Shown in pieces: positions 25,475 to 32,652 of a stretch of DNA of 34,311 bases. This DNA is from an uncultured Bacteroidales bacterium (GTDB lineage Bacteria; Bacteroidota; Bacteroidia; Bacteroidales; Paludibacteraceae). Where the stretch lies: positions 1-34,311 of the forward strand of contig ONPG01000023.1 in assembly GCA_900319645.1 (NCBI GenBank), in the 5' to 3' direction. Under the pieces are notes generated by a model. It saw only the letters and a list, made by a program, of their open reading frames with translations. It made no database searches and was not told where the DNA came from. The stretch's first letter is position 1, and the number at the start of each line of letters is the position of its first letter. The position numbers were made by a program, and so were the translations under genes.

Positions 25475-26629
25475 ATGGATAAGCAATTAGCTAAAGAATA
25501 TAGTAAGACTTCATGGAAAAATAAGCGTGAATACATATTGAAAAGAGATCAATATACATGCCAAATTTGCGGAAGGACTGAACAAAATGGTGTTACATTA
25601 CAAGTACACCATCTAATCTATTTGGCTAATTGTAAACCATGGGAATATCCCGATTATGCGTATATTACTCTTTGCTCCGGTTGTCATGCATCAGAGCATG
25701 GACATAAAATCCCCACATCTGGCTGGATTTATGACAACGAGTATGATTATGGAGATTACGGTGCAGAACAATGCCAATTGTGCGGGGCGGATCTGAGATA
25801 TGTGCATGTATTACACCATCCAAACTGGGGGAATATTATGGTGGGATGTGAATGTGAAAATAAACTATTGAATGGGGATAACACGGCAACAGAACGCAAA
25901 AAAGAAAGAGAAAAATATGCAGAAAAGCTCAAGCGATTCATCAATTCCCCTTTATGGAAACACAAAAAGAATGGTTATTTTTACAAAAAGGATGGTGTCA
26001 TTGTGCGTATATGGGATAATGATAAATATCATTCTATTACATATCAATATATAGACGACACACAAACATATCGGATAAAAGGTTTCTTTCATTCCTTAGT
26101 AGAAGCCAAATACCGCGCTTTTGAAATATTTTATGCACCGGAAATTCACGAGAGTAAATCTTATCCTAAAGATGAGATCCTTGTATGTCAACAACCAACT
26201 AACCTCTCGGATCGCAGGTGTCTGATTAAAAATATATGCGCTCAAATTATTATAAAGGAAAAGAAATTAATTTTACCCCCTTATAACCTAATAAAATCGC
26301 ATATTGTTCAATTTGTTGTTGTGAGAAACCACCAACAAAATGATAGTCTTAATTATGACTTGTATGCATCTTTGATAAGCAAAAGTGATAATAAGATTTA
26401 TGACTTCTATATTAGATTTGTATTTGGGGATACATTACGAGAACAGGAAATTTTATACATAAAAGAAAAGAATATTCAATATATATGCGTAGATTGCTCT
26501 GATTTATTAGACGAGAGAGAAATCTCTATGGAAATAATACACAAATTTTTATACGACAATCAAAATATCCATTCACAGTGGATACATTCTCCAATATACG
26601 ATGCCTACTCTTCGAAAGAGAGCAAATAA
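25475..26629 (+). CDS. HNH endonuclease with extra Cys cluster and CoiA-like C-terminus
   Basis: 384 residues. The HNH core is N-terminal: CQIC (29-32), LQVHH (43-47) and LCSGCH (66-71). A second cysteine group (CQLC about 100-103, then CEC about 125-127) suggests an added zinc site. The last 120 residues end in IQYICVDCSDLLDEREISME and WIHSPIYD; the pattern of a beta strand ending in an acidic residue and a closing W-I-x-x-P is like the CoiA-type nuclease-fold domains seen in some Bacteroidales proteins, but without an obvious active site. The gene is AT-rich, with no close promoter apart from the DUF5053 one. A role as stand-alone nuclease or defence effector is inference. Confidence 0.7.
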   Translation: MDKQLAKEYSKTSWKNKREYILKRDQYTCQICGRTEQNGVTLQVHHLIYLANCKPWEYPDYAYITLCSGCHASEHGHKIPTSGWIYDNEYDYGDYGAEQCQLCGADLRYVHVLHHPNWGNIMVGCECENKLLNGDNTATERKKEREKYAEKLKRFINSPLWKHKKNGYFYKKDGVIVRIWDNDKYHSITYQYIDDTQTYRIKGFFHSLVEAKYRAFEIFYAPEIHESKSYPKDEILVCQQPTNLSDRRCLIKNICAQIIIKEKKLILPPYNLIKSHIVQFVVVRNHQQNDSLNYDLYASLISKSDNKIYDFYIRFVFGDTLREQEILYIKEKNIQYICVDCSDLLDEREISMEIIHKFLYDNQNIHSQWIHSPIYDAYSSKESK

Positions 26630-28049: not shown

Positions 28050-28697
28050 ATGAAGAAACAAAAAATTATTATTGTACAGTACGTACAGAGTTTGATTGAT
28101 CCTAACATCCTCGTTGCGTACACGGCTAACGGCGGTCGAATAGACTTGTATCCGTGTCAAACACCAGAGAAACGCATGACGAAAGGCAAATTGTACACTT
28201 CCGGCGGTGGATTGTTCTTCTCGTTGACCTGCCGTGGGTTGAGGCAAGTGTTTGAAGATTTCACTCCGGCCATGCGCACACCCGGAAAGGGTTGTCACAA
28301 TGCTGTGCGTGGTAATCTCTATCCTCGAATGCGTGCCTATGGCAATATTGTTTGTCATGTACTTGTATGCACCGTTTTCCATGGTCCGCGTCCCACCGTT
28401 CAAGGGGTACGTTATCAGTGCGACCACAAAAACGGCGATGTGATGAACTGGTCTGCTGAAAACCTTGAATGGGTTAGTCCTCGCGAGAACGCATGGCGTG
28501 CGCGTCACGTGCTACATGTGTTGCGGGCAAAAGGGTTTGACCTGTCGGCATGTAGCGGTGCGGACATGGACAAGTGGTTCGCTATCTTCCGAGCGTTGGA
28601 AATGGCAGGCAGGAAGCCCAAAGAACTTCCCTCCGAGGAACTGAAGGAGTTATTCAGTATGTATAACGTCGCGGGAGATTGCTATGAGGGGGAATAG
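28050..28697 (+). CDS. Phage-type HNH endonuclease
   Basis: 215 residues. The HNH_3-type core VRYQCDHKNGDVMNWSAENL followed by EWVSPRENAWRARHVL (residues about 120-155) has the DHKNxD and NLEWV blocks of phage and homing HNH nucleases. The N-terminal 110 residues include RGNLYPRMRAYGNIVCHVLV, the usual lead-in of this family. Such proteins nick or cut DNA and often act as selfish elements in phages and islands. The C-terminal part is helical. The gene is followed directly by the hairpin array at 28699. Confidence 0.82.
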   Translation: MKKQKIIIVQYVQSLIDPNILVAYTANGGRIDLYPCQTPEKRMTKGKLYTSGGGLFFSLTCRGLRQVFEDFTPAMRTPGKGCHNAVRGNLYPRMRAYGNIVCHVLVCTVFHGPRPTVQGVRYQCDHKNGDVMNWSAENLEWVSPRENAWRARHVLHVLRAKGFDLSACSGADMDKWFAIFRALEMAGRKPKELPSEELKELFSMYNVAGDCYEGE

Positions 28698-28698
28698 C

Positions 28699-28990
28699 GG
28701 AGCTGATGCTCCTTGTCGGGGACGTAATCCTCCCGCTCGCGAAAAGAATCGTTCGAGCGTAGCGAGATAAGAATTCACGGGCACAGGACACCGCAGGACG
28801 GTAACTCCGGTAACGGAGGTGCCGGACACAGGACAACGTGAGCACGGAAACCGACATACAATGTCGGGCTAACAGACGAAGGCAGATAACCCGCGGAATA
28901 CCGCGGGGAACAGAACAGTAAAACAACAATGCCGGATACAATCCGGCGACAATAGACAAAGTCATTAACAATGCGGGATAATATCCCGCA
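28699..28990 (+). repeat. Hairpin array A (leader of the 29010 gene)
   Basis: A 312-bp gap with no other gene. Perfect stems: GGAGC/GCTCC (28699), CTCCG/CGGAG (28805), CCGACAT-ACA-ATGTCGG (28851), CCCGCGG-AATA-CCGCGGG (28890), GCCGGAT-ACA-ATCCGGC (28931) and GCGGGAT-AAT-ATCCCGC (28973). The last four start 39-42 bp apart and are followed by GACGAA, CAGAAC, GACAAA and GACAGA linkers. The stems differ while geometry is kept. The block 28803-28838 matches 30956-30991 in array B with two mismatches. Confidence 0.75.
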
Positions 28991-29009
28991 CAATAAACAT
29001 AGACAGATT

Positions 29010-29456
29010 ATGAAAGCAATAGAAATGAACCAAGCCCTCATGGAGGCAATCAAGACAACAGAAGTATTAGGTGCCAGCGCACTCGAAGAGACACGCGCAT
29101 TGCGGCAGTTGGTGGCATCGGCTACCGCTCGTATCGAGGAGCTGCAAACAGCGGCGGTGGAGGACGCAAAAACCTGCGCCATCGAGCAGAACGGAGAGGA
29201 GAAAGGGAAATTCCTCTTTGACGGACACCACTATGAGTTACGACGCGCAGAGACCTTCGATTTCGTCGGCAAGCCGCAGAAATACACGATGGCAGAGGGT
29301 GTGGCTTTTAGGCAGAAGACAGCAGAACAGCAAGTGCTCAAAGCGAAATCGGCAGCGATCACCAAGATCCTCAAAACCCTCCGCGACAACTTCCCCTTGA
29401 CCCACCCCAACATCGCCCCGGATAGCGTGGATTATACGGTAGTGTGCGTGGATTAA
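29010..29456 (+). CDS. Unknown island protein
   Basis: 148 residues from MKAIEMNQALMEAIKTTEVL; the earlier ATG at 28971 lies inside a hairpin and is unlikely. The N-terminal 60 residues are a helical, probably coiled-coil segment (LGASALEETRALRQLVASAT). A compact C-terminal domain follows (FLFDGHHYELRRAETFDFVG, then EGVAFRQKTAEQQVLKAKSA). No family is recognised. The protein is not membrane-bound or exported. It opens the run of small co-directional genes up to 30758 and its transcript would carry the hairpin array as 5' leader. Confidence 0.6.
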   Translation: MKAIEMNQALMEAIKTTEVLGASALEETRALRQLVASATARIEELQTAAVEDAKTCAIEQNGEEKGKFLFDGHHYELRRAETFDFVGKPQKYTMAEGVAFRQKTAEQQVLKAKSAAITKILKTLRDNFPLTHPNIAPDSVDYTVVCVD

Positions 29457-29458
29457 AG

Positions 29459-29477
29459 CGGACGATGGCATCGTCCG
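29459..29477. repeat. Hairpin between 29010 and 29491 genes
   Basis: CGGACGAT-GGC-ATCGTCCG, a perfect 8-bp stem with a three-base loop closed AT/AT. It is followed by TATTGACAG, as in the leader hairpins, directly before the ATG at 29491. Confidence 0.7.
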
Positions 29478-29490
29478 GATATATTGACAG

Positions 29491-29628
29491 ATGCCGAAAA
29501 AGAACAAAAAGAAGAAAAGACAAGCCGCCGCCCGATCCGCCAATCTTGGCGGATACAAAAGCGGGCAGCGGATACAAAAGCGGGCGGCGGCAAAAAGACA
29601 AAAAGAAAAGAAGCAAAAGAAAAATTAA
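29491..29628 (+). CDS. Small, very basic protein containing a palindrome repeat
   Basis: 45 residues: MPKKNKKKKRQAAARSANLG then GYKSGQRIQKRAAAKRQKEK and KQKKN. About half is Lys/Arg, so nucleic-acid binding is possible. The middle (RSANLGGYK) is encoded by the palindrome ATCCGCCAATCTTGGCGGAT followed by ACA, a repeat found at three other places in non-coding parts of the island. A CGGATACAAAAGCGGGC direct repeat follows. It may be a real small gene that took up the repeat in frame, or a non-coding stretch that happens to be open. Confidence 0.4.
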   Translation: MPKKNKKKKRQAAARSANLGGYKSGQRIQKRAAAKRQKEKKQKKN

Positions 29629-29630
29629 AA

Positions 29631-29789
29631 ATGTTTCAGTCCTCTTGTATGTCTGTCCCCTCGCGCGTGCTACGGTTTGATACGATTCGCGACCTTGTCG
29701 CTCATGGGAATCTGCGCCGTGCACTCGCTCTCCCCACCGCAAACACTATGTTGGTTTACGTTGGGGACCCCAACAAGGAAAGGATATAA
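29631..29789 (+). CDS. Possible small protein
   Basis: 52 residues: MFQSSCMSVPSRVLRFDTIR, DLVAHGNLRRALALPTANTM, then LVYVGDPNKERI. It starts three bases after the stop of the basic small ORF, as expected in a tight run of genes. Its composition is protein-like, but no family is recognised. GTTGGG-GAC-CCCAAC (29760-29774) near its end is a further short hairpin. It could be non-coding. Confidence 0.35.
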   Translation: MFQSSCMSVPSRVLRFDTIRDLVAHGNLRRALALPTANTMLVYVGDPNKERI

Positions 29790-29832
29790 AAAGACAGACA
29801 TACAGGGGACGAGACAATTAAAAAACTTTATT

Positions 29833-30156
29833 ATGGACTTAAAAACGGACTTTGAAACCTATTGGGCGTTGTTTAAGCCGGACGTGCAGTTTGAGAACCG
29901 CAGAGACGCAACCCAAATCGAATGGGATGCCTGTCCGCCGGACAAAAAACAAGCCATCATCGCTTGGTTACGCAAACACGGCGCGTACAAAGGGCGCAAC
30001 CCGTATTTCTTCATTCAGGATTTTCGGGTCTGGCAGCCCAAACAGCAAGTGCTATCCTACGCTGCCTATTACGCCAAATATGGTACGACGCTGGAGCGGG
30101 ACGGATGGAAAATGGCGAATCCGACAGGACAGCAAGTTATTTACGTTAAAAACTAA
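29833..30156 (+). CDS. Unknown small island protein
   Basis: 107 residues from MDLKTDFETYWALFKPDVQF at 29833, with an AT-rich start region. The core EWDACPPDKKQAIIAWLRKH and GRNPYFFIQDFRVWQPKQQV is helical and aromatic-rich. No known family is recognised, although small proteins with an NPYFFIQDF-like block are familiar from phage-like regions of this phylum. The stop is six bases before the next gene, so the two are co-transcribed. Confidence 0.55.
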   Translation: MDLKTDFETYWALFKPDVQFENRRDATQIEWDACPPDKKQAIIAWLRKHGAYKGRNPYFFIQDFRVWQPKQQVLSYAAYYAKYGTTLERDGWKMANPTGQQVIYVKN

Positions 30157-30162
30157 AATGCT

Positions 30163-30495
30163 ATGGCACAAGTGATTCAAATAAAAACAGCAGGCGGAGC
30201 GGGAATAATGCTTCGCGGCAAGTTGGGAAACCAGATTTTCCAAGTACGGAACGGCAAGCAGATTGTGATGCAGATGCCACGGAAAAGGACATCGCCACCG
30301 AGCGAGGCTGAATTGGCGAGACGGACACAGTTTGCAGAAGTGCAGGCGGAGTTGGCGGGACTGACCTACGAAAAATGGGAGATGTTTCGCGAAGCTTGGA
30401 AAGCAGCAGGGTATAAGTTCCAAGGGAAGCAGTATTTCACACTGAGAGGGTTTGTTTGCGCGATGCTTTGGGCAGAAAGGAAAGGAGGCAAATGA
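30163..30495 (+). CDS. Member 1 of an unrecognised three-gene family
   Basis: 110 residues. Shared blocks with the products at 31174 and 31603: an N-terminal GK(L/I) turn (IMLRGKLGNQIFQVRNGKQI), a middle RTSPPSEAELARRTQFAEVQ (compare RTTPITPAEQ...KFSTV at 31603) and a C-terminal FTLRGFVCAMLWAE (compare KTLRGYVIAKEYEK and TTFNGWLFAKGWEN). No signal peptide or membrane span. The function is unknown; the size and repeated presence suggest a small structural or nucleic-acid-binding protein. It overlaps the next gene by four bases. Confidence 0.6.
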   Translation: MAQVIQIKTAGGAGIMLRGKLGNQIFQVRNGKQIVMQMPRKRTSPPSEAELARRTQFAEVQAELAGLTYEKWEMFREAWKAAGYKFQGKQYFTLRGFVCAMLWAERKGGK

Positions 30496-30758
30496 TGGAT
30501 TATCCTTTATATGATGTACCTTATTTGGTACGAGACCCGAATGATTTTCGGATGTCTGCAAAACGGCATCAGATAGAAGTACGGAATCAGGCGGTGGTGG
30601 ATGATTACTTTGTGGCACGGGACAAGGGCTCCAATGCCCACGATGCCCGCCAAATAACCGCCACCAAACACGAAATGTCACCCAGACAAGTATATGGTTG
30701 TCTCGTTTGGTACTTCCAAGAAGCCAAAAGAAGACACATCGTGATTCCGGATTTGTAA
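30492..30758 (+). CDS. Unknown small protein, HTH-like C-terminus
   Basis: 88 residues from MMDYPLYDVPYLVRDPNDFR at 30492, overlapping the preceding stop (ATGA). The C-terminal half (ARQITATKHEMSPRQVYGCL followed by VWYFQEAKRR) has the look of a helix-turn-helix. It closes the run of genes that starts at 29010; a new promoter follows at 30771. No family is recognised. DNA binding is only a suggestion from the helical pattern and basic C-terminus. Confidence 0.5.
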   Translation: MMDYPLYDVPYLVRDPNDFRMSAKRHQIEVRNQAVVDDYFVARDKGSNAHDARQITATKHEMSPRQVYGCLVWYFQEAKRRHIVIPDL

Positions 30759-30770
30759 AAAAATCACATT

Positions 30771-30805
30771 TTTGGAACACATTGTTTAATCAGACACTAT
30801 CTTTG
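30771..30805 (+). promoter_or_regulatory. Promoter of the second small-gene block
   Basis: TTTGG at 30771 and TATCTTTG at 30798-30805. The leader from here to the 31174 start is about 360 nt and carries hairpin array B. Confidence 0.6.
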
Positions 30806-30919
30806 CACCGGATTTTGAGAGTAGCAATCGTTTGAGCGGTAGGCGAAATTAGAAGTCCGGTGTTTTTGATGTCGTTATCGTCCCGTATGTCTCCCGTAAG
30901 CGAGTCGTGTTTTGCAGGG

Positions 30920-31154
30920 CACGGAAATCGCGGGCACAGAACAACGAAAAGCGGGAACTCCGGCAACGGAGGTGCCGGACACAGGACACCGAGGGAGCAA
31001 AGCCGGATACTATCCGGCAAAATGGACGAAGCAGGAAGCGGGATAACATCCCGCTAAGAATATAGACAGACGCCGGAGAACATAGACAAAAGCCCGCATT
31101 TAATGCGGGGGAATAAACATACATTATTAATCCATCCGCCATGCATAGGCGGAT
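30920..31154 (+). repeat. Hairpin array B
   Basis: A 415-bp gap (30759-31173) with no credible gene. Stems: CTCCG/CGGAG (30958), GCCGGAT-ACT-ATCCGGC (31002), AGCGGGAT-AAC-ATCCCGCT (31037), CCCGCAT-TTA-ATGCGGG (31093) and ATCCGCC...GGCGGAT (31134-31154). GACGAAG and AGACAGA linkers follow them. The part from CACGGAAATCGCG (30920-30946) recurs at 32595-32621 with three changes, and 30956-30991 recurs in array A. Confidence 0.75.
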
Positions 31155-31173
31155 ACAAAAACAAATCTTAACT

Positions 31174-31426
31174 ATGAGTAAAATCAATTTGGAAGCGCCG
31201 TTTACGGCATTTCGAGGCAAGATTTGCAAGCACTCGAAAATCATCTTCGCACAACGCGGAGACACCCAGTACACCTCGCAGATTTGCAACGGCGGTAAGC
31301 AATGCGAACGCGGCTTTGGCGGACGCTACGCAGAAGGCTGCGTATGAGACTGCGTTCAAAGCGCAGAACAAGTACAAGACCTTGCGCGGGTATGTTATCG
31401 CGAAAGAGTACGAGAAGCTGGCGTAA
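31174..31426 (+). pseudogene. Member 2 of the three-gene family, frameshifted
   Basis: Starts MSKINLEAPFTAFRGKICKH and reads to YTSQIC in one frame, then hits TGA at 31345-31347. The +1 frame carries the expected rest: FATAVSNANAALADATQKAA, YETAFKAQNKYKTLRGYVIA, KEYEKLA, ending at 31424-31426. The two parts match the N- and C-terminal blocks of the 30163 and 31603 products. The length of 253 bp is one base over a multiple of three. A repeated GATTTGCAA at 31221 and 31281 lies at the probable slip or deletion point. Either a true pseudogene, a programmed shift or a sequence error. Confidence 0.65.
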
Positions 31427-31434
31427 GCCACTCT

Positions 31435-31553
31435 CGGCTCTAATGAGCCGATGTCGGGATTCAATCCCGACGCAATGAACGAAGAAAGGCTCTGCGGAAT
31501 ACCGCAGAGAACAGAACAAACATTATTAACCAGATCGCCCAAGCTTGGTCGAT
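31435..31553 (+). repeat. Hairpin array between family members 2 and 3
   Basis: CGGCTC-TAAT-GAGCCG (31435), GTCGGGAT-TCA-ATCCCGAC (31453), CTCTGCGG-AATA-CCGCAGAG (31490) and ATCG-C-CCAAGCTTGG-T-CGAT (31534-31553, followed by ACA). GAACGAAG and CAGAAC linkers lie between them. The third closely resembles CCCGCGG-AATA-CCGCGGG at 28890 with paired stem changes. Confidence 0.75.
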
Positions 31554-31602
31554 ACAATAGTAGAGACCAAGGAGGCGGTCACAAACCTAAACCTTAACTA
31601 TT

Positions 31603-31962
31603 ATGGGAAAAGTAACATTTGAAGACCCGGTACATCACATCTCGGGCAAAATCAGTAAAAAGTATCGCACGACCTACAACTACCGCAAGGCGAGCGAACG
31701 GAAATTCACCAGTGTTCGCGGCGAGCGCACCACGCCTATCACGCCGGCAGAACAGATCATCCAGGGTAAGTTCTCCACCGTACGGGCAGCAGCACTCGTG
31801 AGAAGTCGTGACCTGGCGCACCTGACCGCCGACCAGGCACGCTGGGCAGCCGCCCGCAAAGCCGGAGACCCGCACACCACCTTCAACGGATGGCTCTTCG
31901 CCAAAGGATGGGAGAACTACGACGAGGAAAGCGGAACGGTTATATGGCCGGATTTGCTCTAA
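31603..31962 (+). CDS. Member 3 of the three-gene family
   Basis: 119 residues starting MGKVTFEDPVHHISGKISKK with a good AT-rich start (TTAACTATT before ATG). The blocks RGERTTPITPAEQIIQGKFS and NGWLFAKGWENY correspond to those of the 30163 and 31174 products; a predicted helix in between (TADQARWAAARKAG) replaces the TYEKWEMFREAWKAAG of member 1. No known domain. Its coding part is GC-richer than member 1. The stop is seven bases before the four-arm structure at 31969. Confidence 0.6.
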   Translation: MGKVTFEDPVHHISGKISKKYRTTYNYRKASERKFTSVRGERTTPITPAEQIIQGKFSTVRAAALVRSRDLAHLTADQARWAAARKAGDPHTTFNGWLFAKGWENYDEESGTVIWPDLL

Positions 31963-31968
31963 GCGCAG

Positions 31969-32071
31969 CGGTCGGGATAGCACCTCTTCGGAGACCGCGC
32001 GTCCCAGACGCGCCCTCCCGTCCGCGCCCCCTGCGCGGAAGCCACGGTCCCGAAGGGGTCTAGCCCGACCG
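31969..32071 (+). ncRNA. GC-rich four-arm structured element (candidate RNA)
   Basis: CGGTCGGG (31969-31976) pairs with CCCGACCG (32064-32071). Inside lie four possible arms: CTC-TTCG-GAG, GCGCGT-CCCAG-ACGCGC, CCGCGC-CCCCT-GCGCGG and CCC-GAA-GGG. This is more regular than expected for a spacer. It is not a tRNA (no anticodon or T-arm pattern) and no T-run follows. It may be a structured 3' element of the 31603 mRNA or a recombination site. Confidence 0.45.
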
Positions 32072-32120
32072 AGTGAATGCAGTTAGACAAAAGACAATGG
32101 ACAAAGGACAAAGGACTAAT

Positions 32121-32285
32121 ATGAAGAAAGCGATCTTAGCAGGTATGGTGGCGATAGTCGCCACCGCCTGCAACGTGACAAGGACAGTGACAACACGGAG
32201 CGAGGCATGGCAGAAAGGCGACACGAGCGTAGTCATTCAGACCAAGACCGTGGAGACTTATGATGCATCGCGTAAACTGCCCTAA
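32121..32285 (+). CDS. Small lipoprotein
   Basis: 54 residues from MKKAILAGMVAIVATACNVT at 32121. The lipobox ATAC places the lipidated Cys at residue 17, after a normal short signal. The mature 38 residues (TRTVTTRSEAWQKGDTSVVI, QTKTVETYDASRKLP) are Thr-rich. Small lipoproteins of this build, with a TTRTVT start and a GDTxxxI strand, are common in phage-like and accessory regions of Bacteroidales. An ATG at 32073 would add 16 residues but would place the signal internally. GGACAAAGGACAAAGGAC stands just before the start. Confidence 0.6.
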   Translation: MKKAILAGMVAIVATACNVTRTVTTRSEAWQKGDTSVVIQTKTVETYDASRKLP

Positions 32286-32388
32286 GTAATGCGCTAAAAC
32301 CACGTTTTAGCGGTAATTACCCGGGCGTTCCCGCTCTCCCCAAGAATTAGAAATTCTCGGGGGCCCCGATGAGATGGGACTGTAGGGG

Positions 32389-32408
32389 ATCCGCCAAACT
32401 TGGCGGAT
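32389..32408. repeat. ATCCGCCAA/TTGGCGGAT palindrome
   Basis: ATCCGCCAA-AC-TTGGCGGAT followed by ACA, the same element as at 29534-29556 (loop TC) and, shorter, at 31134-31154. Upstream in the 32286-32886 gap are CGCTAAAA/TTTTAGCG (about 32291) and AGAATT/AATTCT hairpins. Confidence 0.7.
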
Positions 32409-32415
32409 ACAGAGA

Positions 32416-32443
32416 GGGAGCGGCTGTAATGCCGCTCCCTTTT
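32416..32443 (+). terminator. Strong rho-independent terminator at the island's right end
   Basis: GGGAGCGGC-TGTAAT-GCCGCTCCC is a perfect 9-bp stem followed by TTTT. It probably ends the 31603-32285 transcript. Confidence 0.8.
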
Positions 32444-32538
32444 CCGATAGATCGAGAGATCGGGTTATCGAGATATCGAGGTACCGAGAGATTGAGAGAT
32501 CGAGGGACCGATAGATCGAGGGACCGATAGATCGAGGG
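32444..32538. repeat. Degenerate 8-bp tandem repeat (ATCGAGAG-like)
   Basis: About eleven units of roughly eight bases (ATCGAGAG, ATCGGGTT, ATCGAGAT, ACCGAGAG, ATCGAGGG, ACCGATAG), ending in two copies of the 16-mer GATAGATCGAGGGACC. No gene or promoter is seen in it. Confidence 0.7.
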
Positions 32539-32547
32539 AAAAGAGAA

Positions 32548-32652
32548 CCGGCATACGATGCCGGGCTAATTGACGGAGAATTATAGAACGCGCGCACGGA
32601 AATCGCGCGCACAGGACATCGTGGAGAGAGGACCAGCGCAGCGGTAAACCGC
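32548..32652 (+). repeat. Hairpin array C, last before nqrA
   Basis: CCGGCAT-ACG-ATGCCGG (32548-32564) is followed by GCTAATTGACGGAG, as CCGACAT-ACA-ATGTCGG at 28851 is followed by GCTAACAGACGAAG: one stem pair has changed on both sides. Next come CGCGCGC/GCGCGCG around the shared CACGGAAATCGCG block (32595-32621) and GCGGT-AA-ACCGC (32641-32652). No gene follows it except nqrA, which has its own promoter. Confidence 0.7.

Follow-up and report, generated by a model that had tools for sequence, protein, structure and literature searches.

Repetitive extragenic palindromic (REP) elements are among the commonest repeats of bacterial genomes, and their mode of spread is still argued. In Proteobacteria, the GTAG REPs, the bacterial interspersed mosaic elements (BIMEs) and the REP doublets forming hairpins (REPINs) are dispersed hairpins with a short conserved foot and an HUH-Y1 enzyme, the REP-associated tyrosine transposase (RAYT). 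The IS608 transposase acts on a single-stranded hairpin with its foot, and the palindromic elements of Rickettsia lie in frame within protein genes. The present work concerns hairpins at positions 28699-32652 of a 34,311-nt stretch of DNA (hereafter the window; contig ONPG01000023.1 of assembly GCA_900319645.1) from an uncultured Bacteroidales bacterium of the Paludibacteraceae. They belong to a dispersed family of REP-kind elements, each made of a hairpin and one conserved foot, and it is quite probable that they are small mobile elements with a group of RAYTs, here called clade B, as the cognate enzyme. Which described systems stand closest to them? As far as the accessible parts of two reports go, the TnpA_REP of E. 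coli acts on a single-stranded hairpin with its foot (PMC3733652, PMC6006769). In subclass 2.4 of the tnpA_REP genes, double-foot REPs sit in frame between HuH and Y, the feet being GT[AG]G/C[TC]AC, the listed length 194 aa and the HUH motif NH[IFV]H; the C-terminal extensions of TnpA_REP named there are helix-turn-helix or DnaA-like (PMC6006769). The CGTC-tagged REPs are short palindromes with CGTC at the stem end, stems of 8-9 bp, loops of 4-5 and short unpaired tails, for which the accessible part of the source reports copies inside genes and no dedicated transposase (PMC3733652).

A preliminary description of this DNA had listed nine hairpins with the plan arm-AT-NNN-AT-arm, and all nine are present at their places with perfect stems. 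AT-NNN-AT stems of at least 7 bp number nine in 28699-32652, where 500 dinucleotide shuffles average 0.014 and never exceed 1, and the same scan finds no AT-closed triloop stem of at least 7 bp in the rest of the window. How general is this structure? The sample of the own genome comprised the window and 20 other stretches, 366,119 bases in all; the 20 others amount to 331,808 bases, and some of them were picked for DNA matches to the window. They contain 47 more AT-closed triloop stems, with none in 8 of the 20 (116,225 bases), and of the 106 triloop stems of at least 7 bp in the whole sample 56 are AT-closed. The unit consists of a mostly GC-rich stem of 5-6 bp, an AT closure, a triloop and a foot on one side, so that stems including the closure are mostly 7-8 bp and the loop is 3. 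The foot is CTTCGTnnRTT or one of the variants CTCCGT, CTTTGT, CAACGT and CTATGT, mostly 2-3 nt from the stem; in some units TTAG adjoins the stem. On opposite strands it is read as AAT-R-R-AC-GAAG or as CTTCGTnnATT-nn(n)-hairpin. The linker earlier noticed near most stems is stronger than had been claimed, being AAT-R-R-AC-GAAG or a variant at 1-3 nt past the stem.

Sites were also chosen by the foot and ATNNNAT alone, the better-pairing spacer being kept where two fitted. This search of the 366,119 bases gives 36 sites, 32 of them with the five named feet, and 31 of the 32 have Watson-Crick pairs at four or more of the five positions that follow. The 160 stem cells at the named-foot sites comprise 157 Watson-Crick pairs, no G-U pair and 3 mismatches; two of the four sites with other feet pair, and their 20 cells include 3 G-U pairs and 6 mismatches. 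Since the pairing is found without asking for a stem, the hairpin is not an artefact of the search design, and the absence of G-U pairs from the 160 cells points to recognition, or maintenance, of the unit at the DNA level. The earlier view that selection acts on structure and not on sequence is right in that pairing is kept, but the AT closure and the foot sequence are kept too.

To what extent is the family dispersed? From 18 of the 32 units, those sharing one spacing, a single-unit covariance model was constructed. Its perfect pairing is circular because the units were picked for perfect stems; the stem-independent search above and the foot-matching test in RAYT genes below are free of that circularity. 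In the own genome (2,636,779 bases) the model gives 62 matches at E<=1 on 21 contigs, a few of which are both strands of one site and the weakest of which may be chance. A model search of this sort had been proposed with the preliminary description; carried out on 61 genomes, it places the family in 33 of 37 genomes of the own genus, with 0 to 54 matches each, and gives one weak match apiece in 2 of 24 genomes of other families. An exact pattern for one stem type, run over a collection of 84,980 species, hits 47 loci, whose titles name Paludibacteraceae in 14 cases, Bacteroidales only in 32 and Prevotella in one; many of these titles mention the rumen or reticulum.

Copies also lie inside genes. 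An 802-aa BT4734-like_N/DUF3987 gene has four of them, all antisense, and a 941-aa MmeI-type methylase gene has one, also antisense, in the part that separates the target-recognition and C-terminal domains. A 499-aa DUF3987 gene (L020 8562-10061 (-)) contains a tandem run of five 36-bp units that keep the frame, and the stem of one of them is mismatched; the protein gains a low-complexity repeat from this run. A search for the 802-aa gene through 41 genomes of the genus gave 25 loci; 10 were aligned and nine kept, L231 being left out for a wrong reading frame. At one site a 48-nt in-frame insert, comprising foot and hairpin, is present in three of the nine homologues and absent from six; one of the three insert-bearing genes has CTCCG and the others CTTCG. 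Judging from the alignment, these would be gains in three genes, loss from six being less likely. At a larger scale, the islands of four contigs, C35 (the window), C38, C21 and C19, have blocks in common, and the differences among them amount to entire hairpin units, the joints falling within a hairpin or behind a foot. Slippage could account for part of these array changes, not for the insertion into genes. As a separate observation, MmeI-type methylases of two species (L009 82-2907 (-) and L097 7-1242 (+)) have different extra residues at the same linker, and the unit model matches the insert of L009 only.

Is there an enzyme that goes with these elements? A Pfam Y1_Tnp search of the own genome finds one gene, while a profile of five relatives finds five RAYT loci, so Pfam alone understated the family. 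The five loci differ in sequence from one another, and element matches lie in or beside three of them (C31, C47, C12); the clade-B RAYT of G000:C31 occupies L157:1618-2625. For the genus, 65 RAYT frames with an HUH motif were scored; one HUH-less frame was left out, and G000:C41 is counted twice among the group-A frames. A quick tree of the 65 proteins contains a supported clade B of 31. The clade-B open frames are 289-500 aa long, the HUH motif is mostly MPDH, the protein, which has both the HUH and the tyrosine motif, is predicted to fold like HUH-Y1 transposases of the TnpA_REP/IS200 kind, and the genes are accompanied by REP-like hairpins dispersed in the genome.

Between the HUH motif and the tyrosine, 28 of the 31 clade-B genes carry a hairpin themselves (at least 6 perfect pairs between HUH and NPRR), exactly 38 codons past HUH in 12 of the 28 and at 36-45 codons in 22. 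The three without it are L203, L204 and L213, L203 having one near its end. Outside clade B an internal hairpin is found in 4 of 25 group-A genes, in 1 of 8 intermediates and in L198, which falls beside group A. The feet on the two sides match, at least four of five positions pairing, in 19 of the 28 clade-B hairpins. In a set of 29 internal palindromes closed by AT, 25 from clade B and 4 from elsewhere, positions 16-20 from the loop pair in 23, 19, 25, 21 and 22 cases; over 2000 shuffles the means are 8.7 to 11.9 and the observed values are never reached, a control that leaves in the kinship of these related genes. The clade-B feet are CTTCGT, CTCCGT, CTTTGT, CAACGT, CTATGT and others, not GT[AG]G with C[TC]AC. 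The suggestion that the hairpins are targets of a structure-specific protein is thus well supported, the genes of a RAYT-type clade themselves containing the hairpin. In another RAYT group, the palindrome inside the genes of L198 (G024:C47) and L187 (G019:C40) has a stem of 9 bp and flanks rich in AT; it may represent an element type of its own.

The clade-B protein has a further part. Its predicted fold joins the TnpA_REP portion to a DprA-like domain with the Rossmann-type fold of DprA. Among the families listed by Pfam for 36 members at E<=1 there is no DprA family, the second domain has no sequence family match to DprA or ShosA, and a PDB sequence search gives transposases only, at E 0.024-0.025. 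The likeness to DprA and ShosA is one of predicted fold, and here the domain is fused to a transposase. Full-length fusions also occur in genomes of other families (G121, G225, G314, G381, G241, G151, G251, G333, G397, G380, G269, G411, G095). No publication combining TnpAREP or RAYT with DprA was found, preprints and most subscription papers being outside the search.

Does the transposase predict the number of copies? The median number of model matches, which includes copies at RAYT loci, is 24 in clade-B genomes (n=19) and 3 in others (n=16), p=1.7e-4, with clade-B status set by hand and two genomes with fragments (G026, G033) set aside. The excess persists when the comparison is confined to genomes of 88% completeness or more (11 versus 8, p=9e-4). 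The presence of any Y1_Tnp gene was tried as a predictor and by eye was not useful, since other RAYT groups also occur in the genus; the comparison was therefore made with clade B. Foot type was taken for each gene from one palindrome, the CTTCGT palindrome of L162 (G034) being left out, and reversed patterns of four foot types gave 0 to 3 per genome in 41 genomes. Genomes with a RAYT of a given foot have more copies of that foot, and once the copies at the fetched RAYT loci are taken out a combined permutation among the 19 clade-B genomes gives p=0.015. For example, G024 has 13 CAACGT copies beyond its CAACGT RAYT locus. G062 has the most CTATGT copies (24); an overlapping two-strand CTATGT match led us to expect a CTATGT RAYT in this genome, and one was found there, split into two frames.

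Several results weigh against a clade-B RAYT as the cognate enzyme. Group-A RAYTs mostly lack the hairpin, and in 9 of the 28 internal hairpins of clade B the two feet are poorly matched. Once RAYT-locus copies are taken out, the four foot tests are weak when taken singly (p 0.032 for CTTCGT, 0.015 for CTCCGT, 0.050 for CAACGT and 0.054 for CTATGT). Five genomes (G012, G016, G021, G029, G032) have 13-24 matches with no clade-B gene found in drafts 63-92% complete, and two (G008, G027) have CTCCGT RAYTs yet few CTCCGT copies elsewhere. A test of copies against the RAYT nearest in sequence gives p=0.005, and 0.078 without G000 and G062; this test is weak, using 127 hand-picked copies, partly from among the matches listed, leaving out near-duplicates, odd hairpins and RAYT-locus copies, and being carried by those two genomes. 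Finally, the copy-number and foot statistics ignore the kinship of the genomes.

How might the units spread? By analogy with the enzymes known to act on a hairpin with its foot, the clade-B RAYT would bind the unit as a single strand, and its tyrosine would cut and rejoin, copying or moving units. The internal palindrome would be the cognate site of the RAYT, either a source copy or a site of self-control. The DprA-like part may hold the single strand or bring in RecA, the weakest step of the scheme. It is possible, if rather doubtful, that the whole forms one system: a Bacteroidales family of fused proteins, RAYT plus a DprA-like domain that binds single strands, with their own palindrome in or beside the gene, a recognition foot that changed jointly with this palindrome, and a cut strand handed to RecA, so that spread is coupled to recombination by a route not described for REPs. 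The island in the window would then be a place where units gathered and would not serve to regulate the small genes.

Could the hairpins instead be conserved leader elements that regulate or stabilise the mRNAs of the island genes? The preliminary description proposed this role and placed the hairpins before the small genes, and several of these genes do have window units before them and on their strand. This holds locally and not as a rule, for other copies are intragenic in both orientations, some of them antisense. Copy number from 0 to 54 within one genus and two weak matches in the 24 other-family genomes are not what conserved leaders would give, nor are 160 stem cells with no G-U pair or a hairpin located inside a transposase gene; at the Rfam gathering threshold the window yields a tRNA only. 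Any transcribed REP can affect an mRNA, and a local side effect is conceivable, but as an account of the family the leader proposal is not supported and we regard it as very unlikely. Still less probable is that the units are attC-like recombination sites exchanging the small genes as cassettes. In favour of such sites, the islands C35, C38, C21 and C19 have common blocks, with differences between the hairpins, and the earlier suggestion of recombination sites is partly right in that whole units distinguish the arrays of the four islands and the joints lie at or within hairpins; single units, however, insert into genes with no cassette, and units stand in tandem with no genes between.

A rival of another kind leaves the elements mobile and makes the RAYT link incidental, another enzyme, or replication slippage with recombination, spreading them. 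Some genomes have copies and no clade-B gene found, and REPs are known, from the accessible part of one report, to land in many genes (PMC3733652), so that a hairpin inside a RAYT gene might be one landing among others. Chance landing fits poorly with a hairpin that 28 of 31 diverged RAYTs have in the same gene part (at 36-45 codons past HUH in 22 of the 28), with feet that co-vary and with the foot-specific association with copies. For hairpins next to RAYTs from other families the listing had no control for chance; two RAYTs of another family, close to clade B (L255, L256), have a palindrome at the equivalent position, which again argues against an incidental link. This alternative is unlikely in our judgement, and a clade-B RAYT acting on its own hairpin type is preferred.

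The nine hairpins in the window are all on the minus strand. The exact foot-plus-ATNNNAT rule fits six of the nine: 28851..28881 (stem CCGACAT, loop ACA, CTTCGT-type foot, lying 5' of the hairpin on the minus-strand reading), 28931..28961 (stem GCCGGAT, loop ACA, CTTTGT type), 28972..29002 (stem TGCGGGAT, loop AAT, CTATGT type), 31002..31031 (stem GCCGGAT, loop ACT, CTTCGT type), 31453..31484 (stem GTCGGGAT, loop TCA, CTTCGT type) and 32548..32578 (stem CCGGCAT, loop ACG, CTCCGT type). The unit at 31093..31122 (stem CCCGCAT, loop TTA) has a near foot (AATAAACATAC), and the hairpins CGGACGAT-GGC-ATCGTCCG at 29459..29491 and AGCGGGAT-AAC-ATCCCGCT at 31037..31069 have weak feet. A longest-stem rule moves two of the starts one base earlier, to 28972 and 29459. 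Island C38 retains the hairpin of 29459..29491 and has a different one at the place homologous to 28972..29002. Two related-looking hairpins with an AATA tetraloop, given without strand, have a different linker (AACAGAACA) and fall outside the unit model: CCCGCGG-AATA-CCGCGGG at 28890..28917 and CTCTGCGG-AATA-CCGCAGAG, with the same linker, at 31490..31518. The first belongs to array A, whose starts at 28851, 28890, 28931 and 28972 keep the 39-42 bp spacing earlier noted; its 28890 member is thus not of the AT-NNN-AT plan. The paired changes pointed out between 28851 and 32548 and between 28890 and 31490 are there in the sequence.

Other repeats and genes lie nearby. In a second class of repeats the hairpin is followed by CACAG[AG]ACA; the 366 kb sampled from the own genome contain 16 matches, and five of these fall in the window (28782, 28827, 30935, 30980, 32610). 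The class also occurs in group-A RAYTs, the L104 gene containing six 42-bp copies and the L179 gene a single one; as a candidate element of the group-A RAYTs it was rejected, being within 600 bp of only 2 of 25 frames. A third palindrome type, GATCCGCCAANCTTGGCGGATACA, has three copies in the window (29535-29557, 31533-31556, 32388-32411), and an array of about 11.5 copies of the 8-bp unit CGAGAGAT occupies 32445-32536, just before the last hairpin. Tandem 7-mers GACAAAG/GACAATG, which contain the foot-like AATGGACAAAG and have no hairpin, stand shortly before start codons at 32086-32116 of the window, at L009 8745 and at L018 5536. Two HNH endonuclease-like genes (25475-26629 and 28050-28697) lie beside the island.

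What do these elements add to the systems described? With the enzyme gene carrying its presumed target, the foot varying by enzyme and both arms mostly changed together, clade B offers natural pairs of enzyme and site, and the DprA-like fusion suggests a tie between REP spread and recombination of the RecA type. Compared with the GTAG REPs, BIMEs and REPINs, the units here have another foot, a cognate copy in the gene and an enzyme with a fused second domain. As to the palindromic elements of Rickettsia, no RAYT link is reported for them in the accessible part of the source (PMC3733652). The CGTC-tagged REPs, as described there, resemble the present units in being short palindromes with intragenic copies, and the letters CGTC occur in the commonest feet; here, by contrast, CGTC is 5-7 nt from the stem, stems are 7-8 bp and the loop is 3 (PMC3733652). 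For one lineage, a dedicated transposase would thus be at hand for hairpins with a CGTC-containing foot, the link reported as missing in that part of the source, though for other families (PMC3733652). Closest is subclass 2.4, which by the accessible description shares with clade B an HUH-Y1 transposase, Bacteroidetes among its hosts and an in-frame REP between HUH and Y; the double-foot palindrome within the gene, the most striking feature found here, is accordingly of a reported kind (PMC6006769). By the same description, clade B differs in its CTTCGT-type feet, its length of 289-500 aa, its MPDH motif and its DprA-like domain (PMC6006769). New here are the DprA-like fusion, several non-GTAG feet and single-foot arrays.

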